From Epinephelus fuscoguttatus (taxonomy: Eukaryota; Chordata; Actinopteri; Perciformes; Serranidae): a stretch of DNA of 64,000 nt. The stretch's first letter is position 1; each line of letters begins with the position of its first letter. The DNA is taken from NCBI RefSeq assembly GCF_011397635.1, contig NC_064754.1, positions 29,802,543 through 29,866,542 of the forward strand, given 5' to 3'. Made by a program: the position numbers and the translations under genes. This document shows positions 2,781-61,419 of the stretch, in pieces. The notes below the pieces were generated by a model, which saw nothing but the letters and a program-made list of their open reading frames with translations, did no database searches and had not been told where the DNA came from.

Positions 2781-2812
<32 letters not shown>

Positions 2813-4113
2813 GGAGATAAGTGGCACACATTCACTAAAAGTAAAAGCAAGGGTCAACAGGGGATAGGTATCACCTTACCTGCCCATCAGCCCCTGTTTA
2901 CCACTGACACACTCATAATCTGACACACAGTTTCCCAAACACATTAACACACAGCAGTTAGTTGCGGCAACCGAGGGCACATTCTGTCCTCATCCACCAC
3001 ACTGAAGAAGCTACATTACCCAGGTGGAGCTGTGTGTTTTTCCATCGCCTACACCCACCCTGCGTGCACATTATAGAGGCCTTACAAACAGTTTACGCCT
3101 CATGGACCTGGTAAAGTAAATCAGATGTAGTCTTGGTAATCCAAGACATGAGTATGCGAGGAGACGAAAGCTGTCACATCCAATAAAACTTCACAAATCA
3201 CCAAGGAGACATTCAAGGACAGATACAACAGTTCAATCCTTAAATCTGTACGCTCACATTCACCCAGGGTTAGATGCCAGTGTGTTTTATTGTCTAACCT
3301 GTCTGGTCGAGATTCATTATGGACTTTCCACATCAGTGTCCCAACCAGAAAAACAAATCTGTGCCATAAGATTTGCCTAGCAACAGGTGATCAGCAGTTT
3401 ATAAAAACTTCCCAGAACTTTCCCAGGTGCATGAAAACCCCTCTTCATGCAAACACACTTAGTGTGTACAACCCCTTTATGATAATGAGTTTTAATATTG
3501 TTGTATTGTGTCCATTTTAATATATAAAATACTGTATTAGAGAGTGATATCTTATAATCTGAGTTAAGAAGTTACAAGCAGTCTTCCTTTAGTGAAATGC
3601 TCTGTGATGACACAGCTCTGGTGTAAAAGAGATCACTGACAGATTAAAATGATCACACACACTATATTTAGTCAGGGTGTTGCTTCCATCTCAGTGAGTC
3701 TAAAAAGTTTTCTGTCTTTTGTCCTCTGACAGCAGCAGTGTTGACCTGTGCTGTCGCCGAGCTGCTGTCATACACCAGCTGCGTGCAACATGACGCCCCG
3801 CAGAGACGCAGCACATAGTAGCCTGTTGTTCAGACCCACACAAACACATATAAAGCCTTAAACCGCTCCTCGGAGGCAGCAGACGGGCCCCGGGCCAGGC
3901 GCACCTGCTCTCACACCATGTTGGATATTACTTCTGGTTCTTTTGAACCTTTGTACATGCGCTGTTAAAACATAAACTCCTCTACACCCACGCTCCACTC
4001 ACCCAGCTCAGTATCCGCACTATGGTCTGCGGCTGCCGGATGAACTTGTTGAAGTCGAAGCCTCCACCTGCCAAAGAAACCCCGTACGCAGTAGCACCGC
4101 CCGTCTCCTCCAT
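1..4113 (-). CDS. syngr2: synaptogyrin-2 (5' part; exon 1 and part of exon 2)
   Basis: Synaptogyrins are four-pass MARVEL-domain proteins of synaptic-like and secretory vesicles. Exon 1 (4113-4003) encodes 37 residues beginning MEETGGATAYGVSLAGGG and containing FDFNKFIRQPQTIVRILSW, the conserved N-terminal synaptogyrin motif just before the first membrane segment; it ends at a gtgagt donor. Exon 2 (130-1) follows a tgtag acceptor in frame and reads IFALVVFACITTEGYINS, then HSAEARCIFNQNDSACHY: membrane segment 1 and the start of the first lumenal loop. The gene runs off the left edge. The ATG is chosen because it opens the family motif and a short GC-rich leader precedes it. The 3.9-kb intron 1 (131-4002) contains a GAA tract and two DNA-transposon relics. 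Paralogue choice (2 rather than 1 or 3) rests mainly on its TMC8 and TMC6 neighbours. Confidence 0.88.
147..199. repeat. (GAA)n microsatellite in syngr2 intron 1
   Basis: About 17 GAA/AAG triplets lie 17 bases upstream of the exon 2 acceptor on the coding (minus) strand, where they read TTC and so supply the polypyrimidine tract. Length variation here could affect recognition of exon 2. Confidence 0.9.
665..1036. mobile_element. short inverted-repeat DNA element (GCTGCAAC ends)
   Basis: The ends read ggctgcaactaac and, inverted, agctgcaacgattaat. The interior is AT-rich with no ORF and has the layout of a widespread non-autonomous fish DNA transposon. A related fragment sits near 31405-31560. 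Superfamily is not assigned. Confidence 0.55.
1845..2584. mobile_element. TIR element, 'TGTGTAGGATTTAG' family, copy 1
   Basis: The left end tgtgtaggatttagg is mirrored by aatcctacacactgga at the right end. The interior shares long stretches with a second copy at about 28749-30095, for example the segments around 'cagaatggac' and 'actggctctaga'. Non-autonomous; no transposase ORF seen. Confidence 0.6.
2779..2808. repeat. (GT)n microsatellite
   Basis: Uninterrupted GT dinucleotide tract in syngr2 intron 1. Confidence 0.9.
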
Positions 4114-4260
4114 GTCTCTGCCGTTCAGCTGATCCTCCGGAGCTCTCCTCTAAGGTTTCCACCGACCTGACAGGACAGCATAAACTAAAAGTACAGCCAC
4201 CTCCTGTTGTGCGCCACCCAGAGGAGCTGCGCACGCGGCTGCGCGTTAGAGGAGGCGGAG
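4114..4260 (-). promoter_or_regulatory. probable syngr2 promoter and 5' leader
   Basis: A GC- and CpG-richer stretch directly upstream of the syngr2 ATG, including ggaggcggag (GC-box-like) and gcacgcggctgcgcg. No TATA box is evident. Inferred from position and composition only. Confidence 0.4.
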
Positions 4261-5706: not shown

Positions 5707-8700
5707 CTACAAGGTCTTCTTCTCTTCTTCAATTTGGGGCCATTCATCTGCAGAGGCCTCAGAAGCCTGAGGAGAGGACAGACAGATAAATAGTGGAGTT
5801 TGACTGCTTTGTGTAAATTTCATCCTACCAACTGGGGTACATGCAGACCCCAGGGGTATACGTTTTGTCGTATCCCATAGGTGTGTCATTTTATCATTGC
5901 AGTTTGACACTTTGTCAGTCAGTTTCTTCATAATGGCTTCATGTAATTGTTTTCTGTTTCTATTTTAATTAGTGCTTTGTACACATACACAGAAGTACAC
6001 ATACACATAACAGGATTTAACAAACCAGCCCCTACTCTCACCTGATCAAATTCACCCTCTCTGGCTGCCACCACAACATCAGCATCTTCACTGTAGTCTG
6101 ACAAATCCTGTAAGGAGAGAGAGCTCTCATCATTAATTATTTATCCTAATGGAGATGATCATGAAACTGGATCATGTGAGTGAAGTGAAAAGCTTTTGAA
6201 AGACGGAGATACAAAAATATTGACTCACCAGCTCTCCCTCATACGCAGCCAACATTTTCTCCATCTCCAAGCTCCTGAGAAAAAATAAGTTGTCACATAT
6301 AAAGAGACAGTGCACTCAAATCAAAAATACATATTTTTACTTTTCAGTGTAGTGCTATTAATCAGTCTAGATTGTATTCAATGTTGGTGATATCGGCCGT
6401 AGAGATGTCTGCCTTCTCTCAAATATAATGAAACTAGATAACACTCGGCTTGTGGTGCTCATACCCTCCAAAAATATATTTGAAAAACTCAACAGCAATG
6501 TCTCTTTAGCAATCCACAGATCTTGTTGTGAACACTTTCATGTAGGAACTATTTTCTTTTTACAGAAATACACTTGCCAACCACACCACCGCACAGAAGG
6601 AAGTGGGCATCTACTGCTGGCTCGCCTAGCACCACTGAGATAGCTAGCATACAGCTCAGCCGAGGAGGACGCCATTAATGTTTACATCTGACGCCGTCAT
6701 GAGCACAAGCCTCTCACCTATGAGTAGATAAATGCTTCCTTCTGCATAATGATATAGCTGGCAGGTTTAGTTTGGCAGAAAGAAAACACACCAAATCAAC
6801 CTATACTGATAAATAGCACCATAGGTAAGAGGAAAACTATTTTTGATTTTGGGGTGAACTGTCCCTTGTAAACACCCTTTTATTCCAATAGCATACATGA
6901 ATGTATTATAGGTCTAACTACACATGGTGGTGTCGCAGTCACTGAGGTGATGGTCATTGACTGTGGTGTTTCTGGAAATATGAAGTTTTAAACAACCTGA
7001 GGAGGAGTGAACCTTCCACAGTTACACCTAAATATAACATGATGACTTCTTTAAAGACTGATTCAGAGGGTTTTTTTTTGACTTATCGTATTTAAATTTG
7101 ACTTCTTCTGGCAAAGCTTTATACCATTTTGATAAAGCAAGAATTAAAACCCAGGGCATTTCACATGACATCATCCTGTAACAAGACAATGTGAATGTGA
7201 GAAAAATAATGAGAGAATGAGAGCAATGGGAGAATTACTGACCATTCCAGACATTCAACATACAAGCTATAAACTTACCTAGCAGCATCAAGGATGTTTA
7301 TGATGTTATGCACTTATGACACTGTGACTGTAAGCTGCACAAAACATTGTACACAACATTCACCACATAACCACATCCCCAGTTCAACCCCAGCCACATG
7401 TCTTTCTCTTCTCTCCCCATGTTTACTGTCAGTCTACAAGTTGTCAAACTGTTTAAAAGAGGGAAAAATCTCCCCAAAATGTACCTTATACCTCAAAATG
7501 TCCCCTAAGCCCACAGTTGATTTTGTGAGTCTTGATTGTGAACAAGAGGCCATATCTGGAGCTTAAACAAAGCTCCTGTTGCAAGGTGTGTAGCGTGTTC
7601 ACTTACAGCATCATTGCTACATAAATTAATATGTGACCATGAACAAACAAGACCATTGATGGACCTAATTTTATATTATTTGTTGATGTTTTGGATGCTG
7701 GCATGAAAGCTACTGTAGTGGATTTATGGCACACAGCAGGAAAACAGAAAGTAGTATTTCACATACAGCAGCACCAGCCATTGCTTCTTTTTATCTGTAG
7801 ATGGTGAAGGAGCTCCCAACATGTTAATCATTCTTGGTAAATTATAAAAGAAAACCTTACTGAGGATCAAGTGGCTCAGTTCTCTTTGCAAGAGGAAGTA
7901 ACAGTGTCATGTGAAGTGTGGTCATTTTTTTGTGTCAGACTGAAACAGAAAAATAACTTACAGAGACTTGTCTCCGTACACCCTTCGCCCTGAAACAACA
8001 GTAAAAAAAAAAAAAAAAAAAAAAAGACATTAATTCACAGTATCAATGATGAGGAAGCCACACCAGATAAAAACAGAACACTGAAACTCACTGAACATCA
8101 CTCCAACCAAACAACAGACGGAGACCAGGAGAATCAGGGCTATGAAACATCCAAAGACAGCGGCCACCACCAGGGTAGGGAGGCGATTCAGCACTGGAGG
8201 AGCAGGAAGATAAAGAAGAGATAAAACCAAGGATGTTTTACTGAAAGGCAAAGGCACAGGTTTCATTTCAACATTGTGGAGGGACATATGAAACGGGCTG
8301 TTTGGGGTCCTCCCCCAGGAATTTTTAGAGGGCAAACACTTAGGACCAATGCCAACACACCCCTTGCCCTAAGGCCTTAGCCCTTACCCGTCCGTATTGC
8401 GCGTTCACCTCTAGGGGTAGCGTGTCCCTGTTCTTGTTGGGTTAGAGGGGTAAGGGAAAGTGTTGGGGCTACATGGCCCTTCAAACTGAGGTTTTTCAGA
8501 GGCACAAACCGAGTGTTATGAGAAAGCATTGTCAAGATGGCTGCACAAACAACAAAAGAAACCCACAAATCTATTTCCTTCTTTAATAAAGATAAAAAAA
8601 ATTACGATAACCATTGTGCAATCTTTGTTTAATGTTGTTTCAATGTATTATGATCCTTTTCTATATGGCAAGCAAAAAAAAAAATCACTAGTATGCCGTT

Positions 8701-11700
8701 GTCACGTTAGCTAATTAGCTAGGATTGGACAGTCCCGCATTCTAACACATTTCCATGTCGCCCACTTCTCCTTGTGACTTGGTTCCAAGGGCCAGGTGGC
8801 ATTCAAAAATTAGGGAGATAATGTCATACGGCTGTAATTTCCTGAATTCTGGTGAATTTTTTTTGCGTGACTTTGTACATTTACTGCATCAATTAATGGT
8901 GGAAATGTCTTTAGTTTCCTCTGCTACTTTCATGTTTTGAATATGCGGGGATAAATGCACATGTTCCAAGTATCGAGGAGAACGTGTCCCCTCTGTCGCA
9001 CCCCCGCCCCAATAATAAGTGGCATGACTAATTCATATATTAATGGTCATTTATGGGTGAAGCATTCCCTAAATCAATCAATCATCTGTACCGTCTTTAT
9101 CCAAGTACCGCCTCTTGCTGCTTATGGCGGTGGTGTTGTCAAAGCTGTCTGACACTTCACAGTGGTACGTTCCGGAGCTGTTCCCCCCTACAGACAGCAG
9201 GAGTACAGACTGCTTTGGGGGCTGGTTGACCACATAGTAGAAGTTTCCTCGGTCATGTAGGAGGGTTGTGTTGATGAACCATTGGTATCGTGGAAAAGAT
9301 CCCTTCGCCGCCTTGCAGTAGAACCTCAGCCTGGTCACAGCGTAGTTTTCTCCAGTGTCATAGTCGTAATGCATCTTCACAGGCCCACCAACCGGGACTG
9401 TTGGAGACATTGTGGATCAAAAACAGACATCATGGACAAACATTAAAATAAGGTAGTCTGTCAAACAATTCACATACCAACTTCAAGGGGAATCCATTCG
9501 CTGTATTGGGTCCGGTCTCCATTGTTTGCCTGGCACTGCAGCCATCCCAAGTGCCTGTCCAAGACCACTGGAACCTCAAATGCAGCATTTGTCTCTTCAA
9601 CTGTCATACTGGCAACCAATTCTGTTCTGTTGTATAGTGAAAATGTGATAGGCAGAGACCCTTTGGTTGACTGACAGGTGACTATGGCAGAATATTGGGA
9701 ATCTTCCTTTGACACGGTGAAGGAGATGTCAGGGACTGACACCATGTCTGAGGGAGTAAGATAAAGCAGAATGTTACTTTGCTCAAAGACACCATGTCAT
9801 GGCTGTAAAATCTGAACCTGTTAGTGTATTCACTACAGCTAACCTTTGACTGTGATTAAAACTTCAGAGCTGTTTGTGGTGAAGAATTGGGTGTTGTTGA
9901 AGTTGTTGGTGGCGACACACTTGTAGGAGCCACTGTCTTTGGAAGTAGTCCTGAGGGTGACACGTAATGGTTTCGGTAACTTTTCTTTTATATGTTCAGT
10001 TGAAAATGAACATGCTCAGTGGCCTCCATGATAAAGGAGTTCCTTCTTAGACAGTGTTGAACACGTTTGTTGAGGAAAATGACTCACAGAACACAGGAAC
10101 TTGCTTAATCAAGAGATGCAACAAGGCTTTTTAGCAACTACTTTGGTTTTTGGTCACAACAGTTTCTAATGCAGAACTCTGATTTTTCACACAAACATCG
10201 GGTTTACAATTCTCTTGGTCTTACGTAACATGCAACAACACGTTTTTAGATTTCTGTTTGTCTACAGATTAAGCAACAAGAAACATCACGTTACAGTGCA
10301 AATAGACAACTTTTTTTTTAAACTTAGAATCATGAATTAAACGCTGATTGCACCATGTAATGGCTATAGGATAACGACACCATCTCTATTTAGATTGGTT
10401 CCCTGTAAGCCTCACTCACACAATGTAATTCTGTCTGCCATCAGGTGCGATCTCCTGCAAACATTAAGGCTAAATTTAAGTCACAAAGGCAGTGCATCAA
10501 ATGATGTGCAGAAAAGGAGGAGGATCGCATTTTTGTTTCCCCAGTAGCTATTGGCTGGTATCCCCAGTTACCACAGAATATCAGTGTAAGTCCTTAACAG
10601 TTACTCTCCCCAGTAGAGGAAACGGCAAATGGAAGAACAACCAAAGTAAGGCGATATTTATACTTCTACATTGAGTCGACGGCATTGCTACGACATCCTT
10701 CATCCTTCTGGGATTTATACTAAGGGATTTATCCTGGCTTCATATGAGCAGAGGAAATCTCTGCTCATCACTAGGCTAATTTATACAATATAAGATGCCA
10801 TAGGCTTGTGCTAATAACGTTAGCATGCTGTATTTGTTTGGAAAACTTGTTCAGTAAAAGACAGTTGTTTTGTCGGTGAACCTTGTGAGTTGCAATGGAG
10901 CCCAATTATGTGCTGTTACCTTTGCTAAATGTTGCTGTTGTCCCTGGCTTTAGAGGAATGCTATGCTAATTTATACACTGTAAAATGCCATAGGCATCTG
11001 TGTCCAGATAAAGAACGCCGTGAGTTGTAGTGAAGCCAATTTGTGTACTTGCGCTTGAAATTGTTTCTATTAAGCCATGTTTAATGTGTGTTTTGAATCA
11101 ACTAAACTTCACAGCACTTCACAGAAACCTCTGCTGCTGACTGGAGGTTTAACTGCTGAGTGACACAGACACACTACTGCACAAGTATAAATGCTCACAA
11201 TGGCGTAGGCAATGTGCATAGGCTACGGCGTAGGGTCTGCTGCACAAGTATAGATCCTGTTTAACTATGGAAACTTGAACTTGAACAGGTGACCCTCCAG
11301 TTCCCAACCCAAGTCCCTATGGACTGAGCTACTGCCATTACATACCCACATTGTTATTCTTGCCTGCCAACCCAGGGGCGGAAATCCCAGGGGGGACGGG
11401 GGGACATGACTCCCCCTTCAGTAAAGCTGTCCCCCCCTAGAATCATTTGAGACACAATTAATAATTTTTGAACAATGCAGTAGTATTTATTGAAAGCACA
11501 ATGTAAGCGGTGCTCATTATAAAAGCGCAATAATGTGCTATTTAAATCTTAAAAGATTTAGTCTCCCCCTCCCATTCCTAGTAGTGGTATATCCCACACT
11601 CTTTCCAACGGGCGGGCTGCTTGGCAGCAGTAGCAGCGTGTGGCTGGAACCGCTGCCCACATCGCGCATTGCAGGGTAAGATGTTCACTCACACAGACAC

Positions 11701-12905
11701 AGTTTAACTTACACAAGTTACAACACATCCCATTTACTGTGACAACAAGCCCCAGGCCCAGGCTGATAATATAAACTGTCTGCAACATTTCTCCTGCATT
11801 GTTCAAAAGCCTACTCAATTAGGAGTGCTGCTAAGCTAAAAGCTAATGATTAAGCTGAGAGTTTAGTGATAGTCAGAGAGGACAGGAGAGAAAGAAGAGG
11901 GAGAGGACAGGACAAGAGCAGTCAGTGGCGGAGCAATGGGTACCTGTCTGTAGGCTCTCCACCTGTCAGTGAGACAAACATGAAAGACATGCAGACGAGG
12001 AGCAGTCATTACGCGCGACTATTACGCACAGTTGTGGCGGAGCGGCTCGTATGGGTACCTGTCTGTAGGCTCTCCACCTGTCAGTGAGACAAACATGAAA
12101 GACGTGCAGTCTAACCGAGAGGAGCGGTCATTATGCGCAACTGTTACGCACGGTTGTGAGGTGCGCAACGCAGATCTCACAGCACACTGTTTATAAACCA
12201 GTTTACCAGTTTAATTGCAGGAAATGTTTAGTTTTAGTTTAGTTAGTATAGACATTCACTCTGCCTGTTGGAGAGATAGAGAGAAGATTAAAGCGTCAAA
12301 TTGCGGTAAAAGATGCTGCATAAAAGACAGGCTACAACTTTTTTTCCTTGTCCCCCCCGGAATTTTTCTCTAAAATTTTACTGTTTATTGTCCCCCCAAC
12401 TATGAAATGGGATTTTCGCCCCTATGCCAACCACCCAGAATCACCACTGCAACCACCTAACAGCAACACTCCACCATCAGCCCCTTAGGAAACACCCTCT
12501 ATGGCCCTAGTTTTATGTCTGCATCACACACGGTACAAAATGGTTAACAATTACCAAATAAATCATTCATCTGCTCACAACACCATATCAACCACATGGT
12601 AATGCAGAAGCGGCTGTCCAGAGACTGACCTGTAGATCCAGAGACTGTCATCTGCAAAATGGTGGAGAGGAGACTGAGAGATAGGCCGACCATTCAGCAG
12701 CCACTTGTAGGAAACGTGAGTTCCAGCGGTAATATTACAGCGTAGCTTCAGTGTCTTCCCCTCAAAAAACTTCACTGGACCTGAAAGGATGTCGATCTTT
12801 GCACCTTTCACTGGTTCTGCAAGACAGACACAGCAACAATAAACTGTTACTGCAGAACTATATCACATAAGACTGTATTATATCATACACCAGGTTGGAG
12901 TTATA

Positions 12906-12957
<52 letters not shown>

Positions 12958-13112
12958 TGTGAATATTAAAGTGTATGTATAGGTGTGTGTGTATGAGTAT
13001 GTATACACACATAGGAGAAAGCCTCTCTATGAGCTGATGGATATTTTTTGTTTGTTTTTTATTGTCATGGTATGCTGTTGCATAGGCATAGTGGGGTGGT
13101 GTATGTGTGTGT

Positions 13113-13148
<36 letters not shown>

Positions 13149-14275
13149 GTGTGTGTAAGAAAATAAAAGACATTTACACAATAAATTGATGCGGAAAAGG
13201 CGCAAATTGCAGGAAAATGAATTGCATGCAGGAAATTATACATTTGATGTTCAAAATTTTCTAAACCTTTTCTCCCTAAACCCTCATTTCATATGTTGAG
13301 TGCAGATGCATGTGTTAAATTATCACAGTGCAGATGTAATATTCTAGGAACCCTTTCTTTTGTCCTTCCCTGTATCAAACCAGGTAAAAGTCTCACTGGG
13401 ATTAATAAGTTTTTTAAGAAAGACTTAGCCCAGATGCAGTTCACAGTAAAAGCAATGAAACAATTATAAAAGTAACATGCCCAAGCTAAGAAAAATGTTA
13501 TCTTAGACTTGATGAACACATGCTCTTTGAGTTTTGTTTTATAATTGTGTCGAGCTTTTACAAACATAAATGCACATACTGGTACAAGGAAGCCATAAAA
13601 AAGAGACTCACCAATAACCTTCAGATAGTGTGTGTAGCTGACAATGGGCTCTATGTCAGAGTTGTTCTGAGCCTTGGCCACACACTCCAGATTGCCCTCA
13701 TGGTAAGGTTTGACTAAGATGGGGATGACTGCAGTCTCCCAATCCATGGAGGAGTATTCGCCCAGCAACTTGTCATGGTTATCCTCCCTAGAAACGGTTG
13801 ATACTTAGAGGGATTTTCTAGAATTACTCTGTTAATACACTGATTAGATTTAATCTGAACAAATACTCACTTATATAACTGGAACAGGACAGTGTCATTC
13901 CATGGGTAGGTATCCAGTGCACACTCAAAATCTACAACGCTTTTCACCAATGCCTCTGAAGGGCCAATAAGTACTGGACGCACCAGAGTTACCTGACCTA
14001 TCAATACAATAAAATAGAATAAAACAAAACTGCACAAACACTCAACAGAAAGAATCAGGAGCTACAAAATGATACTAATTGACTAGACATGCACTAACAC
14101 ACACTCAAACAACAACTGACTTACTGCTCTCCTTGAGACAGTAGCACAACCCTGTAGAGAGTGAGAAGATATCAAATCAATTACAAGAGTTTCAAATTGT
14201 GAAATCTAAGTGTGCTGCAGTGCATTTAATGTTGAGCATCTTACCCAGTGTGACCACAAAGAAGGAAGGAAACAT
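5707..14275 (-). CDS. Ig gene B: four-Ig-domain FCRL/PECAM-like type I membrane receptor, at the IL-40 syntenic position
   Basis: Exons: 14275-14245, 14151-14125, 13997-13871, 13787-13612, 12816-12630, 9950-9844, 9747-9478, 9397-9092, 8193-8092, 7989-7962, 6274-6229, 6107-6042, 5766-5707. All have GT-AG borders and the frame closes on TAG, giving 510 aa. Residues 1-19 are a signal peptide split by a 27-bp mini-exon. Ig1 is 20-120 (FEC...LEC), Ig2 121-218 (LRC...YKC), Ig3 219-308 (VTCQSTKGSLPITFSL...LQCQANN), Ig4 309-410 (FYC...YHC), and the membrane helix about 418-440. The 66-residue tail is acidic, with three tyrosines (449, 465, 474) that do not fit the ITIM consensus. Ig1 and Ig2 are each split by a phase-2 intron, unlike paralogue A. 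Ligand and function are unknown; FcR-like or adhesion roles are family inference. Intron 5 (12629-9951) holds a hAT element and a smaller inverted-repeat element; intron 10 holds a MITE. Confidence 0.82.
6301..6868. mobile_element. TIR MITE in Ig gene B intron
   Basis: Left end cagtgcactcaaatcaaaaata and the inverted right end cagttcaccccaaaatcaaaaa, each continuing into a ctgatttat/ctattaatcag segment, form inverted repeats of about 60 bp. No ORF of note. It lies between cytoplasmic-tail exons 6274-6229 and 7989-7962. Confidence 0.65.
8004..8024. repeat. poly(A) tract at an exon acceptor
   Basis: A run of about 20 A on the plus strand is a T run on the coding strand, directly upstream of the acceptor of the 7989-7962 exon of Ig gene B. 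It serves as polypyrimidine tract. The rest of intron 8194-9091 shows nothing recognisable. Confidence 0.7.
10650..11256. mobile_element. TIR element with internal duplication in Ig gene B intron 5
   Basis: The left end atttatacttctacattgag...cggcattgctacg is mirrored by the inverted right end atctatacttgtgcagcagac...acgccgtagcc. Inside, a segment of about 190 bp (gctaatttatac...atgccataggc) is present twice, near 10778 and 10968. Non-autonomous. Confidence 0.55.
11365..12432. mobile_element. non-autonomous hAT-type transposon with 8-bp target-site duplication
   Basis: The element spans 11373-12424 (1,052 bp). Its ends are caggggcggaaatccc and, inverted, taggggcgaaaatccc. The flanks 11365-11372 and 12425-12432 are identical (tgccaacc), an 8-bp duplication as hAT transposases make. 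No transposase ORF is present. Internally, a unit of about 115 bp starting tacctgtctgtaggctctcc is tandemly duplicated at 11941 and 12056. The insertion lies in the intron separating the two halves of the Ig2 domain of Ig gene B and accounts for about 40% of that intron. Confidence 0.85.
12908..12950. repeat. (GT)n microsatellite
   Basis: GT tract in Ig gene B intron 4, close to the Ig2 exon acceptor; a second tract lies at 13100-13156. Confidence 0.9.
13100..13156. repeat. (GT)n microsatellite, imperfect
   Basis: GT tract with GTAT and GC interruptions in Ig gene B intron 4. Confidence 0.9.
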
Positions 14276-15782
14276 TCTTGAAGAAAAATTGCCTAATACT
14301 ACTGTATACGTCAAATGCGATTACGCTACACTGTGTTATGGTGGAGTTTTAACAGTGGTTAGTGGCACTGTGGGTGAAAAAAATTCACACGCACTTAGAA
14401 ACATGTGCAGATAGCTGATAGCGATACACCTCCCTGCGGTACCCGTCATCGTAACGACTTAAGATGTCAAGTCAAGTCATTTACTCACTGGTGTTATACA
14501 TAGTCTGTGTGTGTTGCAAACAAAATTATATAAACTATAAAACTATTAAATTAATTGAATAATTTCTTAATTTGCACTGGGGCCCATCATATTAGTGTGC
14601 ACTGGGGCCTGTTGTAACTACCTTACACCACTCTGCAGGGGTGCAGGGGACACGTCCTCCTCAATATTTAGAACATGTGCATTTGTCCCCAAAAAATAAA
14701 AACATTAAAGTGGCAGAGGATTTTAAAGAACTGCTAGAACGTGAATCATAGATGGAACAATGCCTCCAGTAATGTGGGTGGTGCCAATATCCAACCTCAA
14801 ATGCAGTGGTTGGCATCTGCCATTAATTTAAGAGAAGCTGAAACAACTATGCAGGATTAAAGGAAAGGCGTACTATGGCAATTCCACCTTAAGCTGGTGC
14901 ATAAAAATTCATCAGACCGCAGGAAATAAAGTGTGTGATGCTCAGACTTTAATCAATATGTATGAAAATGTGAATTTCAAAGCAACGTAAGTCAGGAATC
15001 ATAGAGCTCCCCAGGAATGAGTCCTAAAACCCGGTAATGAGTTAGTATTTTAGCACACATTTTAGCACTTTCTTTGCCTCAGAGTCAGTGGGCTTTTTAA
15101 GTGGGTTTTTGGTTAGATGCCTGAAATAAGGTCTGTAATTAACACAAGCTGAAGAGACTTCTACATTTTGTTCTATGACATAAAGTATGCCAGTAAATAC
15201 CTTGCTTGTAAATTTTGAAGCTTTTAAGTGCCTTACAGAAGGTGGTTGCTAACAAGTGGCTAAATGAGACAACAGAGAGTCATCATGCTTTTGTCAACAC
15301 GGCTTCACAGTCTTGTTATGGTGGCAATGTTAAGTCATGCAACTGTGGTGTTAAATGTTTGTTTGCCACAGAGCTTATTTTTTGCAATAGTACAAAATCG
15401 AATGGAAAAATTCCAATGGATTTTTGATGAGGGAACCAAGCCGATGCTAGCTTTTACATCAGCCTACAGAAAAACGTCATCCCTGGGGCACTCTATTGTG
15501 AAGAGGTGAAGGTGTAATCAAGCATAATTTCTTTGAGTGGTTTGACTGAAAAAAAAGACAACAAAACATCCCTTAGAATTTAATTTATTTAATTTAATTT
15601 TTATTTGCAAACACATGACAATATACAGTAATTTTGCTTGAAATAAAATCTGTTACTATTTTTAATTGAATGTTCCACCAGTTTCTTAAAAGCAATTTGG
15701 CAGCTCAGGAAAATTCCTAATTTCCATACCTGCAGAACAATAAAATATGACTGCAGATTAAAAATAAAATAATGAACAACTT
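14276..15782. other. spacer between Ig genes A and B
   Basis: This 1.5 kb must contain the Ig gene B promoter and leader at the left side and the Ig gene A 3' untranslated region at the right. AATAAA signals on the minus strand occur at 15605-15600 and 15589-15584, about 180 bases after the Ig gene A stop. No other gene, RNA or clear repeat is visible. Confidence 0.5.
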
Positions 15783-18700
15783 TCATGAAGAGATGATCGA
15801 TTTGACAGGAGATGCAGGTTCTTCCTGTGTCACACTGTGATCTCTACGATCTAAAAGAGAGAGAGAGCAGTCATTTTATTTCAGTGCACACAGAGATCGT
15901 TAATAAAGGTCAAATCTGATATGTATTTGTTTGTCCATTCTTTAACAGTTGCTTTTGTCTTATATGGATGTAAAGTTTCTGAACAGGTAACACTTTGATT
16001 TACATGTCCGCAACTTCCTTATAATTTCTTAGAAGATGGAAGAAACATTGTAATTTGGTACAGTTATAGAGAAAAATGTCTTAATATACTCACCTGTGTT
16101 GAGCTTATTAGCAGTTTTTTTTTTAATTTCCAGAGGAATTTCCTGAAAAGCCATACATTTTTAATTGTATGCTTGTCTGTGAACAAATTTCACAATTTTG
16201 CATATTGTGCAGGCCTGTGGTGCACTGACTTAAAAACTCTTTAAGTTACAATTGAAAGTACTGTATTTCCTTAATAGTTTCCTGATTATTTTGTCAAAAG
16301 ATTCCTGATGACAATTATTCGAATTTGTACTAATAGAGAAAATAGCCCCAGTGTTGAATTAATTTTCCATTGATTAATTCCAATTAATTGCTATTTTATC
16401 CTTGAGAGTCTTTTGGCAAAAATGTCAAATATATGAAATGTGTGTCCTGGTGAGCGTACAATTCAAACTATATATGTAAAATAAGGTTTCCAATAATGAA
16501 TGAATAATTCAATAATATTTGCTTTGGTTTAAATGGAGCTGTACCTTCAAGGAAATTCCTATTTTCTCTATAATTAGTACCATGCTGTGTAGTTCTGTCC
16601 AGAAAACATCATAGCAAATGGGATATTGTTATTGTTGTAAAATAAAGCACTACTGTGTCCATTCTTTATATAATTACTACCCAGTTATAAAGTATTTTCA
16701 GAAACTTTACAGTTACATATCACTTCCTTTCTATAGAAAAGTGTTACAGGACAGTATGACACTGATTCAAAATCATTGTGTTTACATGAGTGTTGTGCTC
16801 TGTTTGGTGGTTTTCAAGCCTGTGTACCTCATTCTGAACATCGAAGTCTATAGACGAAGTATCTTCCTCTTTGCTTCCTGACTGGGACCTGGGTGCAGAC
16901 TGAGGAAGTGCGCCAGAACTGGGAATGGAAGGCACAAACACTTAAATAGACTGATTTTAGCTACAAAAAAAAAGGAAAAAAGTCCATAAAGATAAAACAT
17001 ACTTTGTTGTGACAATGTGGGCATGAGCTGTGAAAAAAATGAGAAATGGAGACATCAGAATAGTTCATACAAACTCGGCTACGCATTTAAAGTCAGCTGA
17101 TTTGTCCCTCACACATTAACAAACACACACCTTGCTTGTGTTCAAACATCTTGTACACGCAGCCTACACCCACTGCCAACATCAGAAGAAGGAAGCAGCA
17201 GAACACTATGGTAATGACCTCTGTGGTGTTCATGGAAACCTCTGTGGTGTTCATGGAAACCTCTGTGGAAGAGAAGGGACACGTCCAGTGAAGTATTACA
17301 TACTGTAGAGGCAGCACGTAAGGCATCTAAATATACAGTATGTGCTTTTACTTGGTAGTGTTTCAGTGGCAGATGTTGCTCGAGGCATGGAGCAAAGGAT
17401 CCTGTCTGATCACGAGTAACAAGTGTGTTGGGGTACAGTGAAGAGCACAGAGACAACACAAGATAAGACATGATAAGACAAGAAAAGACAAGACAAGAGG
17501 AAAGTTATAAAAAGGCACATGACAAATGTTAAGTTGAGTCCGTATTCAAAAGAGTTACACAATAAGATTGAGAGCACTTCCATATCTGTACGGTAAATAT
17601 GTGGATGGCAGCTGATTAGCTTAGCTTAGCATGAACACTGGAACGTGAAAACAGCCAGCCTGGCTCTCTCCAAAGGTAAAAGCACCTCTAAAGATAACTA
17701 GTTAATACATTATATATTGTTTGTTTAACCTATACAAAAAAATGGAAGTGTAAAAGTGAAAATTTGGCATCTTACAGAGGGTTACATGCCAGACTACTTC
17801 TCAACCCAGAGCCTTAACTGGGGACTGCCCATTGTTCAGACAACCCAAAATTCTGAAGCCCCTTTAGTCTGAAAAATGTCCCACTCGACCAAAAGCCCAT
17901 TTCTCCAACAGCCCATTATCCCAAAGATCTATGCTTATTGCTCTGAAGTCCAGACTCTCCGAAAATCCACATTGACTGGAGTTAAATGACCAAACCGCCA
18001 GAACAAATGTTTGCATTTCACGTTTCTGTAAACCACAGATTTGTTACTTTTGTACATTATTTTGTAGCTGACACGTTGAACATTAATGTTTCTCAACAAC
18101 ACTGTGATGAATGTGTGGTTAGGTTTAAGAAGAAAAACTACTACTACTACATTTTGGCCTAAAACATCCGCGTTTGGTGGCAAAAAAAAAGGAGGAACAA
18201 GAGAAGGAGGGGCATGCCATCAAAAAATAGCGATCACCCCACTGTGACAGCAAAACTCGATTGAATGAACATGTTTATTAGTAAGCTTTAGAGGTGTTAT
18301 TCTGTGACCTTTGGAGGCGGGCTAGCTGTTTCCCCCATTTGCAGTCTTTATGCTAAGCTAAGTTAACTGGCATCTGGCGGTATCTTATTTACTGTACAGA
18401 CATGAGCATGATATCAATCTTATCACCTTAGCAAGTCTGGGTAAGCAAACAAATAAGCACATTTCCCAGAAATGTTAAACTACTCCTTCAAGATTACTTT
18501 AATTGGACACCTAGTTTTAATGTTTTCACCTGTCGCTTGGACCCGCACAGCTGCACTCTCCACCCAGGGCCCGGAGTCATCATAGCTGTCCCTGGCCCTG
18601 CAGCGGTAATGCCCAGACTCCTCTGGACCAAGCGTGGCTAGAACAAGGGTTTGTCTATGTGTAGATAGAGCATAGTGAGACAAGACAGACTGAATATAGG

Positions 18701-20988
18701 AGTCCATATATGTCTCAGGGGGAAGGACAGAGTCATTCAAGAGCCAGGAGACGTAAGGGAAGGTTCCTCTGCTGACTTGACAGCTCAACCTGGCAGCAGC
18801 CAGTTTGGAGTCAGCGCTGTAGAGATATTCAACCTCCACTTTGGCATCACCTCCGACTGGGACTGGGCAAACGGAGGGGAAGAGAAGGAAAGAAAGATCA
18901 ACAAAGAGTGGAAGGAAAGGAAGGCAGTCACAGAGAGACTTATTTCTTTCACATTTCTGTGTAGCTCATACCCACTTCCAGAGTCACAGGATCACTCATC
19001 AACTTCTGCACTTCAGTATTCACCCGACATTGAGCCATGCCCATGTCCTGCCCGGGCACCATGGTGACAGGGAACCAGGCAGCGAGGGATTCAGTAGCTG
19101 TGACAGATCCCACCTCTTCGTCATCTATTAAAAGAGAGATGTTGACTGGAAGACTTCCTCTTGTTGACCAGCAGGTCACATTTGCACTGTGACTGGCTCC
19201 CTCTTTCAAGATTGAGAAAGAGATTCTTGGCTTGGAAACGTAGACTGGTGGAGGAATAAAGAGGGGGGAAGATGGGAAGATACATGTGAAACAAATCTAA
19301 CCAACATTTCAGACAGGTGTTTTTTTGTTGATACACACCTTTGACTGTCACCTGGAACTCGAAGCTGCTGGAAAACCTCCTGATGTCCTGCACCGTGGAC
19401 CAAGCCATGCAATAATACCATCCCGCATGTTCTGGAGTCACATTCTCCATCACTAGCTTGTTACCAGTGAGGTGAAGAAGGGGAGAGGTTGAAGACGTCA
19501 CTTCCCTCCTGTTGAAAAACCAGGTGTAGGAAAGGTGGGACCCCTTTGAGACACTGCAGCTCAGTACGATGTGTGACCCCTCATATACCACGGGGGGGAA
19601 GGGTTCAGAAGTCACTCTGGTGTTCGATGCTGGAGCTAGAGGTTAGGAATGATAGATGGTTGGGGAGGAGAGAAAAAAGTCAGATTTGGGATTTTTGTCG
19701 TCCAGTAAAGTAACCGTGATATTAAAAGTTCTATGCAGACTTTTCAGTCATCTAAGCCCCTAAACCATTTTTAAAATTATGTTTAGGGAAAACATTATGG
19801 TTTGGGTTAAAATTAAATGATTTCTGACAGAAAGCCCTGAAGACAAACTTATCCCATGTGCCGAAATACCTGTAAAACTAATGACATTCCCATCAGCCTC
19901 AGCTGTCAGCCTACTTTGTGTTTTATGCTGTTTGACCCTTCGCTAAGTTCTGTCCTTGTACGAAGACTGACCAATCATAACGTAGCATCTGGCCGGCTCA
20001 GACCAGGGTCCGACAACAACACAGCTGTGCTCCATTGACTCTAATGCAGTGGTTTCAGACTTCCTTCATTTATAGGCTGGTTTTGTGGATTTGGAGCTAA
20101 ATGTTGTGCCTGGGGCACAGTGAATTGTGCCTATAGTTAAGCTTTAGCTCCTGTTTTTGTGCCTGAATAAGCTTTTTTGTTTTCCAGTGCAGTTAGTTAC
20201 AGTGAGGGCTCCATGCTCGCTCCGACAGATTGACGGACCAACACAAAGAGTCAGATGCTTCACATGGTAACTTTAAAGCTCTAACAGGATGAATGCTTTT
20301 TCTCTCTCTGCGTATCTTTTACTCACTGACTACACTCAGCTTGATGCTGTTGCTGACTCCTGTGCTTTCTCCTGCCGTGGCTTTACAGTGGTACGACCCC
20401 TCTGATGTTGCAGCAACTTTCAGGAAGAACGAAGCACGTTGGTCTTCTTGGAGATCAGCGGCTGTGTCAATCACAACATCACCATCGTCCAGCTCCAGCA
20501 GCAGCTCGTAAGTGACTGGCAGAGAGGAGTGAGTTGCATTACACCGAAAAGCCACCCTCGAGCCAAGGTAGGCCATGTCAGGACCAGTAAGCACTGGGCG
20601 AAGAGAGATCGATCCACCTGAAGAAAGACATGAAACACTGGATGGAGCCCTGAAATTTACCCATAACACCTTTTTAATAGAATATGAGCAGATACAGCTA
20701 CCGAAGCATTTTATTTCAGGTTATGAGATCAAAGAATAATATCTGAAAAGTTCTGAACCACTGAGAACAAACTTTAGATGTCACAGCCAGCTGAGCTCCA
20801 TATCTCACATAAGCACCTCTGCAACAAACTTACTTATCTTGCTGAAGAAACTTGCCAGAGCTGAAAAAAACACACGTTACAGTAAGAATATTAAACCAAT
20901 AAATTATTAATACATGCAGCCATTTTAAAGCGATGTTGACTAACTCACCCAAAATTGGCAGCAAATTATGGGTCCGTAGATTCTTCAT
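15783..20988 (-). CDS. Ig gene A: four-Ig-domain FCRL/PECAM-like type I membrane receptor, tandem paralogue of gene B
   Basis: Exons: 20988-20949, 20860-20834, 20617-20327, 19635-19339, 19244-18972, 18862-18530, 17262-17131, 17027-17003, 16918-16828, 16142-16094, 15850-15783. The frame closes on TGA, giving 541 aa. The signal peptide (1-22, ending LALASFFSKI) is split by a 27-bp mini-exon exactly as in gene B. Ig1 is 23-119 (FRC...YHC), Ig2 120-218 (LSC...YYC), Ig3 219-309 (VTCWSTRGSLPVNISL...AQC), Ig4 310-420 (LSC...YRC), each in one phase 1-1 exon. The stalk carries EVSMNTT twice (a perfect 21-bp duplication). The membrane helix is about 437-457. The 84-residue tail has no tyrosine beyond Y457 at the membrane; SIDFDVQNE has Phe where a phosphotyrosine motif might sit. 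Its ATG is only 671 bp below the tmc8 stop, same strand. A MITE fills most of intron 6. Confidence 0.84.
17224..17265. repeat. 21-bp direct duplication inside the Ig gene A stalk exon
   Basis: The 21-base unit gaggtttccatgaacaccaca (coding strand) occurs twice head to tail, encoding EVSMNTT twice just outside the membrane and adding a second N-glycosylation sequon (NTT). Confidence 0.85.
17555..18492. mobile_element. long-TIR MITE in Ig gene A intron 6
   Basis: The left arm (ctgtacggtaaatatg...ttagcttagcatgaacactgg...ccaaaggtaaaagcacctctaaag) is the inverse of the right arm (cctttggaggcgggctagctg...cttatttactgtacagac...aaactactccttcaa). The arms are about 200 bp. No ORF. A related end fragment (tttaaaggaatattacaacatttt) lies near 23712-23790 in a tmc8 intron. 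Confidence 0.7.
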
Positions 20989-21658: not shown

Positions 21659-24600
21659 TCAGTTTGCATCCGTGGAGGGGTGGTCTTTCCAGTGGTGGAG
21701 GGGGGCGTCTTCTTTGATGGGTGCAGAACGCACTCTGAGGGGGTTTCTCTGACGTCTGAGCATCGTGGCGTGCTGTTTCACCAGGAAACGCTTATCTGAG
21801 CTGCTCTGTGAGGAAACCACATACAAATCTATAGACACAACATGCACACAGATACACTAGAGAAGCATAATAATAACAGGCACAGTAGTTGATGATTCAC
21901 TTGCAACAACCAAATCAACTATTTTCTTATCTTTTGTCTGTGACTAATTTGTAAATATGTAAATGTTTGATGACATGTGACTTACCATAACCAGCATGTC
22001 TTTGAGTCTCTCGATGGCCTTCTGATTGGCTCGTCCCCGTGACACATATGAGGTTAAGATTATACTGAGGAAACAGAAGCAAGACCAGCAGATCAGATGA
22101 AAGTACTGTGTGTCTATTTTAAAACAGCTTGTATCCACTGATGATTATTACTTTTACACAACATGTATGCCGCTGTACACACAGTGCTTCTAGTTCTCTT
22201 ACACAAAGGTTGAAACAGTCTTAAAGCAGATTATACCTGTTTTCCTTCAAGCAGCAAAAACTCATCACAAAGCAAATACAGAGCCAGTGTTTGCCTAAAC
22301 CTGTTGCATACTTACATCTCAGCCAGTATGAGCGGCAGGGCAAAGGCCTCAGAGGCCAGGTAGCGGAGAGTGGTCTGTGCGGCGCCTGGCAGACTGTTCA
22401 TACACACTCCTGTCACGTTAAACAGAGTTTCTCCATTTCCAAAAGGACCACAGGAGGAACTGGAGAAGAAGGTGGAGAAACAAATTGAAGAAATGAGCAA
22501 CAGAGAAAAGTTAAATATAAATGGGATCTTCGAGTGGTAAAAGAGCAAATAGATTTTTTATATTAACAGTTTAACAACTACAGAAACAAGAAACAGCATT
22601 TAAAATTACACCTAGACAGTATGTTCACTGTACATTAGTCAAAATAACAAAAACAGTACATGTTTTTGTTCAGTGCAGCTTCTTGCTGGTAGAGGTTGAA
22701 GCCCAGTGCGGCTGCAGCCATGAAGAGGCCAAGCAGCAACATGAAGTGGAATAAAACGGATGAGCTGGAGGCACGAAACATCCTCTGCTCTGCCACACAG
22801 CACCGCAGGACTGTGAACTGAAGACAGTGTTGGAGAGAGATAGACATTGTTAGAAAATGTTCAAATACAGGTGATGGTTACTGCAGCATCATGGTCACAA
22901 CTCTGTCATTGCAGAACCATGTACCATAGACTGGGTCAAGAGGGAAACAAGGAGAAACAGAACAAAACAAAATTTGATGAAAAAAAAAAGAAAGAAGCTA
23001 TTTAATGGTGCTATATACAACATTAAGAGTCTGGGCTGGGATTGCCTTCACATGGCTCTCAGCTCTGATGACCTCACAAGCACACATGGAGGTGGTTGAG
23101 ATGAAACTGCAGCAGCTAGCTTTGCTAACAGGCTAACAGCGCTAACAACAACGACACTGCTGACAGAGCCAATAGAGGTAAAGCAGGTTATCGGGATGAC
23201 CTGAGGGGGAACCAGAGAGTGGTGGAGCAGGGGTAAAAGGTAGGGTCAATAGTTTCAATCTGGCCCCCTGTTAGGAAGATAAGGAGCTCCCAGACCTCAT
23301 TGTTTTCCTAATTTGCAGACATTCTCGGGCGCTTTTCTTCTTCGAGTTAGCTGCTAACTGCTATCAGTTGCTTTAAATCTTCCAGCGGTGGGTGGCATAC
23401 ATAACATGTTGTCAAAATATCATAGCCATCCTGCCGGCTGTCCCTTTAACTCAAAGGTTGTTTCTACGCTGTTACTACTTCTGATGCCAGCTTAAAGGTG
23501 AGACAACTCTGTTCTCGCATTCCATGATTGTACCTTTTATACAGAACAGCGAGGCGTCATATCGGTGTGAAATTCCCACCCTGAAGTGTATATGTTCGTA
23601 TGTATGCCAGTATGACATTACCTCACTATATCTTTACATAGCATATACTGTAGTTGTTTGCTGCTACATTAATGTTCAAAATCTCATATATAGAACATCA
23701 ATGTAGATTATTTAAAGGAATATTACAACATTTTGAGAGACTTTCTTAGTTGTTTTCTTGTCTGGAGTTAGGTGAGAGAAATCTTCTCTTCTAAATGTTT
23801 TTTCCTTAAAAAAAAGTGGAATTTGTTAATATAATTTGCACAAAATAATATAATTTTTCTAAACAAATAACATCCAGTGAAGAAGTTTACTTATTTCTAT
23901 GTCCTTCACCATCAGGTACTGTTATTATTTTAATATTGCTGCTTTGGTACTTCCAAATTACTAATTTCCATTTGTTTATTTCATATCTGAATACCTTGAT
24001 CAGATTGGTTATTGTGACATCCATGCCAGTACAGGATGCTGAATGGGATGTAAACATTGAGAGATACAAAGAGGGAGGTACAGACAGCTGAAATAGATGG
24101 ACCATAACTCTCATGTCCCAGACAACCTTTTTGATGTAGAAGGTGGCCATCAGTGTGACAGTTCCTATCAGAGGCAGCAGAGGGCAGTAGTAGACTCCCA
24201 CCCAGGACACTGTTTGACCATACACCAGATCCAACACATTGAAAGGGATCAGGAAGCGCTGTTTCCCTGACAACCGGGCCAGCAACGATAAAGGATACTT
24301 CTCCTGCACCAGCCTGTCAGACAGAGGAAAGATAGTTTGGGCAGAGAATTAATGACACTTGACTACATAGTTTAACTGAGCTTTAATCTTTCTACAGATT
24401 AGCCAAACTGCTGGGGAATGTACCCAAGAACGACATCAAACGCACTGATCTTTCCATTCAAACCCCAAGGCTGACTAAGAAAGAAAAAGACTGTAGATCT
24501 CAAACAAACCCACTTCCTGGGGTAGTTCATGAGAAAGGCGTTGCAGAAAGTTGCGAGGAAGTTGAAGATACACAGCTTGTACATCTCTCGACCAATCCTG

Positions 24601-24815
24601 TTCTCCCTGCAATGGGAAGGATTCTGTAAAGAAACACACAAATGATAAGGGAGTTAATGACAAACTTAATGACACATATGAGTCTTGAAATATGAACCTC
24701 ACTCTCAACTCACCTGCTGACGTTCTGTTGTTGTGAAGAGGAAAAATAAGTAGATCGCCAGTGAGGCCAGCTTCAAGAAGATGCTCCTGAAGTAAAGAGA
24801 AGTGAACTGACAAAG

Positions 24816-24881
<66 letters not shown>

Positions 24882-33766: not shown

Positions 33767-34157
33767 TAAGTGAAAGATTCATTCATTCATTCATCTTCTA
33801 ACCCCTTCATCCTCTTGAGGGTCGTGGGGGGACTGGAGCCTATCCCAGATGACATTGGGCGAGAGGCAGGGTACACCCTGGACAGGTCGCCAGAGTATCA
33901 CAGGGCTGACACATAGAGACAGACAACCATTCACACTCACATTCACACCTATGGGCAATTTAGAGTTATCAATTAGCCTAGTCTGCATGTCTTTGGACTG
34001 TGGGAGGAAGCCGGAGTGCCCGGAGAGAACCCATGCTGGGAGAACATGCAAGCTCCGCACAGTGGGGCTCCCACACCCGGGATCGAACCGGCAACTCTCT
34101 TGCTGTGAGGCGACAGTGCTAACCACCACATCACCGTGCCGCCCCTAAGTGAAAGAT
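33767..34157 (-). mobile_element. tRNA-headed SINE with L2-like tail, copy 2, 12-bp target-site duplication
   Basis: The insertion (33779-34145, minus strand) has the same head (ggcggcacggtgatgtggtg, box B ggttcgatcccggg) and TGAA-repeat tail as the copy at 26449-26820. It is flanked by taagtgaaagat at 33767-33778 and 34146-34157. The two copies differ at scattered positions only, so both look fairly young. Confidence 0.82.
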
Positions 34158-46600: not shown

Positions 46601-47995
46601 GGCGGTGCACCCTCCAGTGCTGTCTGCAGGGAGAAGCTCCTTCACTGGACTGGAGCTCCTCACTGGAGCGGTGAGCTGTGTGCTGTGGTGTCATATTATT
46701 GTGACACCTCTCACATCCTATGACACCTTAGTTGGAAAAAAAAAAAGCCATTCACCACATCCTTTATGTGTTCAGAAGCTTTAAAACTGTATGATAACAA
46801 AGCCATTTTTAAAGAGCTGGAAATAAAGTGCTCCTCCACTACAACAGCTTATAGTTTTGCTCATTGTTATGTCACTTGAATGTTTGAGGTTCGCTGAATT
46901 TTGACACTAGATGTTTTCACATTCATTGCTGAGGGGAAGTTTCTCTGTGATCACCTTAAATCTCAGTTTAAGCTGTGTATGCACAAACAGGATTTTGTGA
47001 CATCACAACTAGTCTGGAAACCAATTATGGTTAAATATGCAATAAGTGTGATGTGGAAATCTGAAACCCGTAGTGCACTCTCACAGATAATGGACCTTTT
47101 AGTGAAGTAGGAGTCAACTTGTGCCCTGCAGTCAAACTTCTTATACTAAAAATTATCGCTTGACAATGTTTAAATATTCTATTGATATTGTAATATGAGA
47201 CTAGATATTGTTTTAGATTCTGGATAGCATATTGTAAGTGTCCTTTCCTGGCTTTAACAGATGCAATACAGTGAAGTGATGTAATTTTCTAAACTTGCCT
47301 GATTAGGTATTTGGTTAAAAGTATTGTGATATTGGATTTTGTCCGCATCATCCAACCCTACTGAAAATATATGTATAATCACAGAGTCTGGATTTTTTTT
47401 TAAATTTTTTGAAAAAATACTTTTAACCCAAACCAAATATTTAAAAAAGCTACTTTAAGGCAACTTTAAGTTTTTGCTTAAATGTCTCTCTGTCTCCTTT
47501 TTTCTCAGGGCTATTTCTCAGACACAGTGATGTACTATGGATACTACTCCAACTATACACTGGGTGGAAGCTGCAGGGATACTGATGACAGGCAGAATGC
47601 CTCTTTGCCCAAAGGAGCCAGCCTGGACTGTGTGTTGTATAACATGCCGCTTGCATACTTCTTCACCATAGGAGTGGCTTTCTTCATCACATGTATCATT
47701 CTTGTATACAGGTACATTGATTTTGTATGCTTTTTGTTAGTTAAAAATGCACATCTAAACACAAACTGTACTAAAATAACTCATAATAAGTGTAATAATA
47801 TTTCATGGAGCATGTTAATGTGCAATTTCCCAACAGCATGTCAAAGTCGTTTGGTCAGAGCTTCCGAATCGACAAATCTCACAGTATCTTGGCCATGAAG
47901 GTCTTCTGCTCCTGGGACTTCAAGGTCATTAAGAAAACTTCTGTCAGACTCATGTCTGAGAATATCTGCACCCAGCTCAAGGTACATGTAAACAC

Positions 47996-48026
<31 letters not shown>

Positions 48027-61360: not shown

Positions 61361-61419
<59 letters not shown>

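Follow-up and report, generated by a model that had tools for sequence, protein, structure and literature searches.

In placental mammals, the gene for IL-40 (C17orf99) lies between TMC8 and SYNGR2. Which genes hold this interval in a bony fish, and are they related to IL-40? We addressed this question in a 64,000-nucleotide stretch of the genome of the grouper Epinephelus fuscoguttatus (NC_064754.1, hereafter the window), in which two neighboring genes, termed A and B, stand between TMC8 and SYNGR2. Our analysis shows that the pair encodes four-immunoglobulin (Ig) type I receptors of the FcR/FCRL/PECAM1 superfamily at the locus held by IL-40 in placentals, and makes it probable, though not proven, that IL-40 descends from a receptor of this type by shortening. 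One paper describes IL-40 as 'found exclusively in mammalian genomes', lacking high homology to other proteins and without an identified receptor (PMC12967690), and two others count it among the few 'orphan' cytokines and confine its expression to mammals (PMC8566875, PMC10923619). None of the papers listed by our literature searches was listed with a link of IL-40 to fish receptors or to FCRL or PECAM1.

A Tandem Receptor Pair Between TMC8 and SYNGR2

Genes A and B form an intact head-to-tail pair between TMC8 and SYNGR2, in the order TMC8 > A > B > SYNGR2, all on the minus strand. The pair spans positions 5707-20988 (minus) of the window, from the gene B stop codon to the gene A ATG. An earlier note on this DNA had proposed tandem four-Ig membrane receptors at 5707..20988, and splice-site modeling bears this out: gene A (20988-15783, minus; 11 exons, 541 aa) and gene B (14275-5707, minus; 13 exons, 510 aa) are both complete, with GT-AG borders at all introns and an open frame. 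They share one layout, consisting of a signal peptide split by a 27-bp mini exon, the domains Ig1-Ig4, a transmembrane exon and small tail exons. Ectodomain introns of gene A are in phase 1 throughout, and each of its Ig domains is a single exon with phase-1 borders. In gene B, Ig1 is interrupted by an 83-bp intron (13870-13788) and Ig2 by a 2.7-kb intron (12629-9951), whereas the gene A Ig domains are unsplit. The pattern of an immunoreceptor tyrosine-based inhibitory motif (ITIM), [SIVLT]xYxx[LIV], is absent from the last 90 residues of both proteins; the gene B tail carries three tyrosines in an acidic context. In the AlphaFold2 model of P0001, a relative of gene A and not the window protein itself, the strands fit four Ig domains followed by a helix at 444-474; the mean predicted local distance difference test (pLDDT) value is 75.8, with lower values in the fourth domain and the tail. 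The features of the locus, in the direction of transcription, are as follows.

21660..28369, minus: TMC8; tblastn with the Tupaia TMC8 part of P0242, 3' end by eye
15783..20988, minus: gene A, type I membrane protein, 541 aa, tail without ITIM; 11-exon model, with P0001 (97% identical) and its AlphaFold2 model
20949..20988, minus: gene A exon 1, first part of the signal peptide; gene model
20834..20860, minus: gene A exon 2, 27-bp mini exon; gene model
20327..20617, minus: gene A Ig1 exon; PF17736 30.1 bits; outside IL-40, the fish set of this domain scores highest with the D1 model
19339..19635, minus: gene A Ig2 exon; passed over when gene A is aligned with the IL-40 profile
18972..19244, minus: gene A Ig3 exon; profile-profile partner of IL-40 D2; PF17736 14.4 bits, below cut-off
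18530..18862, minus: gene A Ig4 exon; lies beyond the alignment with the IL-40 profile
17131..17262, minus: gene A stalk and transmembrane exon; gene model and P0001 structure model
15783..17027, minus: gene A cytoplasmic exons 17027-17003, 16918-16828, 16142-16094 and 15850-15783; gene model
5707..14275, minus: gene B, type I membrane protein, 510 aa, acidic tail with three tyrosines, no ITIM; 13-exon model
14245..14275, minus: gene B exon 1, first part of the signal peptide; alignment with P0079 begins at gene B residue 1
14125..14151, minus: gene B exon 2, 27-bp mini exon, signal peptide end; gene model
13612..13997, minus: gene B Ig1, two exons, 13997-13871 and 13787-13612; gene model
9844..12816, minus: gene B Ig2, exons 12816-12630 and 9950-9844; gene model
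9478..9747, minus: gene B Ig3; PF17736 37.1 bits (cut-off 26); top tested receptor domain for the IL-40 D2 model after the frog protein
9092..9397, minus: gene B Ig4; gene model
8092..8193, minus: gene B transmembrane exon; gene model
5707..7989, minus: gene B cytoplasmic exons 7989-7962, 6274-6229, 6107-6042 and 5766-5707; gene model
1..4140, minus: SYNGR2 5' part, running off the low end; exon 130..2 by tblastn, first exon about 4140-3990 by eye

The flanking genes were mapped with mammalian proteins. The camel SYNGR2 part of P0236 matched an exon at 130..2 (minus; tblastn, E-value 5e-11), and the Tupaia TMC8 part of P0242 matched pieces over 28369..22698 (minus; tblastn), with a stop near 21660 by eye, so that TMC8 ends about 670 bp upstream of the gene A ATG. 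For the mammalian side of the comparison, the window was set against placental gene models that fuse TMC8 with IL-40 (Tupaia P0242, Scotinomys P0243) or IL-40 with SYNGR2 (camel P0236). These models, P0242 having been checked with Pfam, give the placental order TMC8 > IL-40 > SYNGR2 on one strand, which equals the grouper order and strand, as the earlier note had stated.

The best database match of gene A was an E. fuscoguttatus 'Fc receptor-like protein 5 isoform X2' (P0001; 97% identity, 100% query cover). Of the 7994 candidates scored, 162 proved homologous to gene A (E ≤ 1e-3); among the best 120 of these 162, all 114 named sequences come from teleosts (by eye, salmonids, burbot and many percomorphs). 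Their database labels vary and include FCRL5, brother of CDO, neogenin, hemicentin and pregnancy-specific glycoprotein. In 4 of the 120 homologs listed (P0003, P0025, P0066 and P0079), which are database models of 800-932 aa fusing the tandem genes, a single motif search placed gene B after gene A. Gene B aligned with parts of P0079, P0003 and P0025 at 69-71% identity over nearly its full length. Judging by these models, the A-B tandem is present in at least four further percomorphs.

The proteins A and B share 29% identity. In the wide domain tree described below, each domain of A pairs with its counterpart in B (A1 with B1, A2 with B2, A3 with B3, A4 with B4) on a starred branch. This one-to-one pairing points to a duplication of the whole gene in tandem, and A and B are, on this sequence evidence, tandem duplicates.

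IL-40 Domains Compared with the Fish Receptors

The two Ig domains of IL-40, D1 and D2, were compared with the receptor domains using hidden Markov models (HMMs) built from 106 (D1) and 113 (D2) sequences; the PECAM1 and FCRL5 comparison domains come from one human sequence each (6 and 9 domains). The D1 HMM scored highest, outside D1 itself, on fish A Ig1 (median 25.4 bits, range 11.3-37.4, n = 112), followed by the single Ig domain of the frog protein P0244 (24.9), IL-40 D2 (18.9), the best FCRL5 domain (14.9, n = 9), gene B Ig3 (14.0, n = 5), the best PECAM1 domain (13.9, n = 6) and fish A Ig3 (4.3), while fish Ig2, Ig4 and B1 scored about zero. With the D2 HMM, the frog protein (43.3) was followed by gene B Ig3 (median 38.4, range 31.1-39.9, n = 5), the best FCRL5 domain (31.8), the best PECAM1 domain (D5, 26.5), IL-40 D1 (25.7), fish A Ig1 (22.2) and fish A Ig3 (18.2).

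When the profiles of whole IL-40 (33 sequences) and complete gene A (34 sequences) were aligned with each other, D1 fell on Ig1 and D2 on Ig3, with Ig2 passed over (probability 97.4; E-value 1.4e-11 for that single pair). The D1 profile alone also aligned to gene A Ig1 (97.2). The Pfam family PF17736 (the 'C17orf99' domain, cut-off 26) recognized gene B Ig3 (37.1) and gene A Ig1 (30.1), and gene A Ig3 fell below its cut-off (14.4). A preference of D1 for Ig1 and of D2 for Ig3 was thus seen by several measures, with moderate support.

The earlier note had also pointed to short strings shared between IL-40 and gene B Ig3. The gene B strings, CQSTKGSLPITFSL and LQCQANNGDRTQYS, are present in the gene B model, and the IL-40 strings occur in the database human isoform P0124. 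A motif, P-[IV]-T-[YF]-x-[LFI], was found in 97 of 106 IL-40 D1 and 90 of 113 D2 domains, in 75 of 112 fish A1, 10 of 113 A3 and 5 of 5 B3 domains and in the frog domain (1/1); it occurs in 1 of 6 PECAM1 and 0 of 9 FCRL5 domains and in none of the Ig2, Ig4 or B1 sets. This motif counts for little because it was noticed post hoc.

Phylogenetic Trees of the Ig Domains

The wide tree (76 rows, 105 columns) included all PECAM1 and FCRL5 domains. Because long branches dominated it, a focused tree (46 rows, 96 columns) was built, from which Ig2 and Ig4 of A and B, Ig1 of B, PECAM1 D1-D3 and D6, and FCRL5 D1-D3 were omitted. In this tree, whose row removal, like that of the resampled trees below, favors a link between IL-40 and the fish receptors, D1 grouped with A1 (91/63) and D2 with A3 and B3 (94/81); neither branch was starred, and the program warned of long A1 and D1 branches. 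Approximately unbiased (AU) tests did not reject A1 with FCRL5 (p = 0.35), D2 with the frog domain (0.14) or D2 with A3, B3 and the frog domain (0.31).

Resampling comprised quick trees from 12 random row draws, using rows of at least 80 residues and the omissions of the focused tree except that PECAM1 D6 was kept. The D1+A1 clade appeared in 9 of the 12 trees and the D2+A3+B3 clade in 8, while D2 with FCRL5 alone and D1 with D2 appeared in none (0/12 each). Of the trees of IL-40, FCRL and PECAM1 domains, which the earlier note had put forward as a check, the focused one gives both colinear groupings, unstarred, but the wide tree does not favor them and the AU tests leave rival groupings at p = 0.15-0.35. 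We prefer the colinear correspondence of D1 with Ig1 and of D2 with Ig3; it is not proven by sequence alone, and synteny bears much of the weight.

A Probable Membrane Anchor in IL-40

IL-40 is called secreted in PMC13282775 and in the 2021 IL-40 paper. A hydrophobic 19-residue window (Kyte-Doolittle > 1.6) follows D2 in 72 of the 120 listed IL-40 sequences (P0121-P0240), one of which (P0236) was counted through SYNGR2's own segment, and in 67 of the 98 sequences with both domains. An uncharged run of at least 18 residues after D2 is present in 78 of these 98 listed two-domain sequences, and 69 of the 78 have no more than 12 residues behind it. Rodents, bats, carnivores, armadillo, tenrec and others share a segment that can be aligned here. 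The segment is weaker in the human isoform P0124 (1.42), and the mouse IL-40 model shows a helix at 227-251 in a block with pLDDT 48-67. Absence of an anchor-like segment was noted for the primate forms P0121-P0123 and 17 others of the 98; the C-terminus of these primate forms is the canonical one.

The uncharged stretch after D2 is most likely a membrane anchor, and it may represent a transmembrane segment, a glycosylphosphatidylinositol (GPI) signal or a relic. Its presence in most listed two-domain sequences is at odds with the plain description of a secreted cytokine. The earlier note had likewise treated IL-40 as secreted, which fits the primate form with the canonical C-terminus but not the 78 of 98 sequences with an uncharged C-terminal stretch. 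Comparison of the protein isoform P0121 with P0124, P0241 and P0242 suggests an exon order of two-part signal peptide, D1, D2 and anchor for IL-40.

A Frog Protein and the Distribution of IL-40

A search with human IL-40 returned 122 matches up to E 10, and the 100 named sequences among the 120 listed are all placental mammals. A second search, which admitted longer proteins, gave 20 matches among 426 candidates, including 18 named placentals and one frog protein (P0244, Discoglossus pictus), which matched human IL-40 at E 1.9e-3. Both searches need shared five-letter words, and the absence of marsupials, sauropsids and other fish therefore says little.

P0244 contains a single Ig domain, which matches PF17736 with 49.3 bits; the protein matched no second Pfam family at E ≤ 1. 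By eye, a long Thr/Pro-rich N-terminal part precedes this domain, and a transmembrane-like stretch with a short basic tail follows it. The Ig domain scored 43.3 with the IL-40 D2 HMM, 30.9 with that of gene B Ig3 and 22.7 with that of gene A Ig3. In the single-sequence comparison with the frog domain, IL-40 D2 had a median of 31.5 and a maximum of 42.2, PECAM1 D5 stood between the two at 34.9, and the best solved-structure match of P0244 was FCRL5 (87 bits over several domains). P0244 thus resembles IL-40 in having a D2-like Ig domain followed by a transmembrane-like stretch; it differs in having one Ig domain only, in its long Thr/Pro-rich N-terminal part and in siding with PECAM1 D5 in the tree. 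The protein may weaken the 'mammal-only' status of IL-40.

Evidence Against Common Descent and Rival Explanations

Several results weigh against descent of IL-40 from the fish receptor type. With an HMM of whole IL-40, FCRL5 (136) and PECAM1 (72) reached larger total scores than did gene A (43, measured on P0001) and gene B (40); by best domain, the order was frog 45.3, gene B 37.3, PECAM1 30.6, burbot A 30.1, FCRL5 29.8 and P0001 20.8. Its placement was untidy: D2 matched both Ig1 (17.1) and Ig3 (20.8) of P0001, in burbot D2 fell on Ig1 and D1 on Ig2, and D1 fell on Ig1 only in a salmonid. A D1-only profile run against the PDB gave FCRL5 27.3 in total, similar to the fish A1 median, contactin 4 19.8 and PECAM1 D2 17.6, and in the reverse direction the fish A1 HMM scored FCRL5 D5 (36.3), D7 (35.0) and D4 (34.9) above the IL-40 D1 median (33.7). 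D1 fits gene A best and D2 fits gene B best, so that neither fish gene supplies both. PF17736 was rejected as an IL-40-specific test, with human PECAM1 reaching 71.5 bits over three stretches and three FCRL5 domains 80.3; the earlier note had suspected that part of the IL-40 motif is common to the FCRL family, and sharing with PECAM1 and FCRL5 was indeed found. Signal-peptide likeness to IL-40 was also rejected as evidence: the string LALASFFSK named in that note does end the gene A signal peptide, but its 'FSK' end is not conserved in other teleosts (P0029, P0079, consensus). In the wide tree, D1 joined PECAM1 D2 (94/82, a long-branch join) and the placement of D2 was unsettled. In the focused tree, P0244 joined PECAM1 D5 (94/82), and the grouping of D2 with the frog was not rejected (p = 0.14). 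Nor did AU tests reject D2 with FCRL5 (p = 0.15), D1 with FCRL5 (0.31) or D1 with D2 (0.35), and in the resampled trees D2 stood with FCRL5 and PECAM1 D6 in 2 of 12 and with the frog in 2 of 12.

In the main rival explanation, members of the FcR/FCRL/PECAM1 superfamily reached the TMC8-SYNGR2 interval separately in teleosts and mammals and the likeness is at superfamily level only. Matches of PF17736 to PECAM1 and FCRL5, the IL-40+FCRL5 groupings left standing by AU tests and the two resampled trees with D2 beside FCRL5 and PECAM1 D6 are all consistent with it, as is the finding that FCRL5 is the top PDB sequence match both of IL-40 and of the gene A profile (234 bits for gene A). Such families diversify fast, according to PMC2413239. 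Independent insertion demands, however, a coincidence of short interval, strand and superfamily, leaves the Ig1/Ig3 preference without explanation and finds no resampled tree in which D2 and FCRL5 domains alone form a clade (0/12); we regard it as unlikely, though a serious competitor. Fold comparison was uninformative for assigning the genes to FCRL/FcR or to PECAM1: FCRL5 was not among the matches listed, which carries no weight against FCRL5.

That A and B are plain teleost orthologs of FCRL5, as the database labels have it, is very improbable. Many named homologs are labeled 'Fc receptor-like protein 5', FCRL5 is the closest solved structure by sequence, and FCRL genes share with gene A phase-1 Ig exons and a split signal peptide; but the labels are inconsistent (brother of CDO, pregnancy-specific glycoprotein, neogenin and hemicentin also occur), as is typical of automatic naming. 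FCRL5 has nine Ig domains, the family carries tails with ITIMs or activating counterparts (ITAMs), and the motif P-[IV]-T-[YF]-x-[LFI] is missing from all nine domains, whereas A and B have four Ig domains and no ITIM. According to PMC2413239, FcR-like genes of mammals and Xenopus have a shared synteny that includes SLAMF8, IGSF9, DUSP23 and TAGLN2, which speaks against an FCRL ortholog label for fish genes flanked by TMC8 and SYNGR2. Hardly more credible, and if anything less so, is a PECAM1 paralog, in the form of a second and shortened gene of this type on the same ancestral chromosome. In humans, PECAM1 and IL-40 both lie on 17q, PECAM1 also has a small second exon, it matches PF17736, its D5 resembles IL-40 D2 and gene B Ig3 (26.5 and 22.4 bits with the respective HMMs), and P0244 joins D5 in the focused tree. 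On the D2 and D1 HMMs of IL-40, however, gene B Ig3 and fish A Ig1, respectively, outscore the PECAM1 domains, and PECAM1 has six Ig domains and an ITIM tail, unlike A and B.

Proposed Origin of IL-40

Descent from a shared receptor remains the reading we favor. IL-40 occupies the same interval and strand as A and B, and its D1 and D2 prefer fish Ig1 and Ig3; it differs from them in having two Ig domains and not four, in lacking a long cytoplasmic tail and in being described as secreted. The proposal of the earlier note that IL-40 is a shortened receptor descendant is upheld by locus, order, strand and domain preference, but it is qualified by the unstarred tree grouping, the rivals left unrejected and the less clean whole-IL-40 HMM.

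Most likely, the ancestor had one receptor gene between TMC8 and SYNGR2. In the teleost line this gene would have doubled to give A and B. In the mammalian line, the phase-1 exons of Ig2 and Ig4 and the long tail would have been lost, leaving signal peptide, Ig1, Ig3 and a short membrane anchor, i.e., IL-40; these losses would keep the frame intact because each is a phase-1 step in the gene A layout. Some IL-40 isoforms would subsequently have dropped the anchor.

We hypothesize that the fish genes encode surface receptors of leukocyte type, or adhesion molecules, whose N-terminal Ig domains bind a protein partner, ligand binding and immune expression being expected from the family. With tails without an ITIM, these proteins might signal weakly or via partners. 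IL-40 would retain the binding half and could act as a short membrane-bound or shed ligand, that is, a receptor ectodomain turned ligand. We lean, if only slightly, towards the full version of this proposal: an FcR/PECAM1-type membrane receptor would have stood at the TMC8-SYNGR2 locus in ancient bony vertebrates, and IL-40, rather than an orphan cytokine confined to mammals, would be its mammalian form, derived through loss of the Ig2 and Ig4 exons and still membrane-anchored in most placentals. The receptor of IL-40 would then be predicted to be the partner of the ancestral Ig1/Ig3 face. If this is correct, a non-mammalian relative at the same locus gives IL-40 a family and hints at which partners to test, the purely secreted nature of IL-40 is called into question, and the teleost 'FCRL5' genes get a better name.

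Other Features of the Window

Beyond TMC8, a second TMC gene lies on the plus strand (open reading frames (ORFs) at 46374-51284, with one match at 49267-49734), followed by exons that by eye resemble NOTUM at 53510-63556 (minus). Synteny past the second TMC gene presumably differs from that of human 17q25. A 202-nt direct repeat, 94% identical between its copies at 26445-26646 and 33782-33983, is a dispersed repeat; an opposite-strand ORF at 57794-58153 looks similar by eye. The ORF at 59408-59758 (minus) resembles, by eye, the start of a RecQ-like helicase and is probably a fragment of a mobile element.

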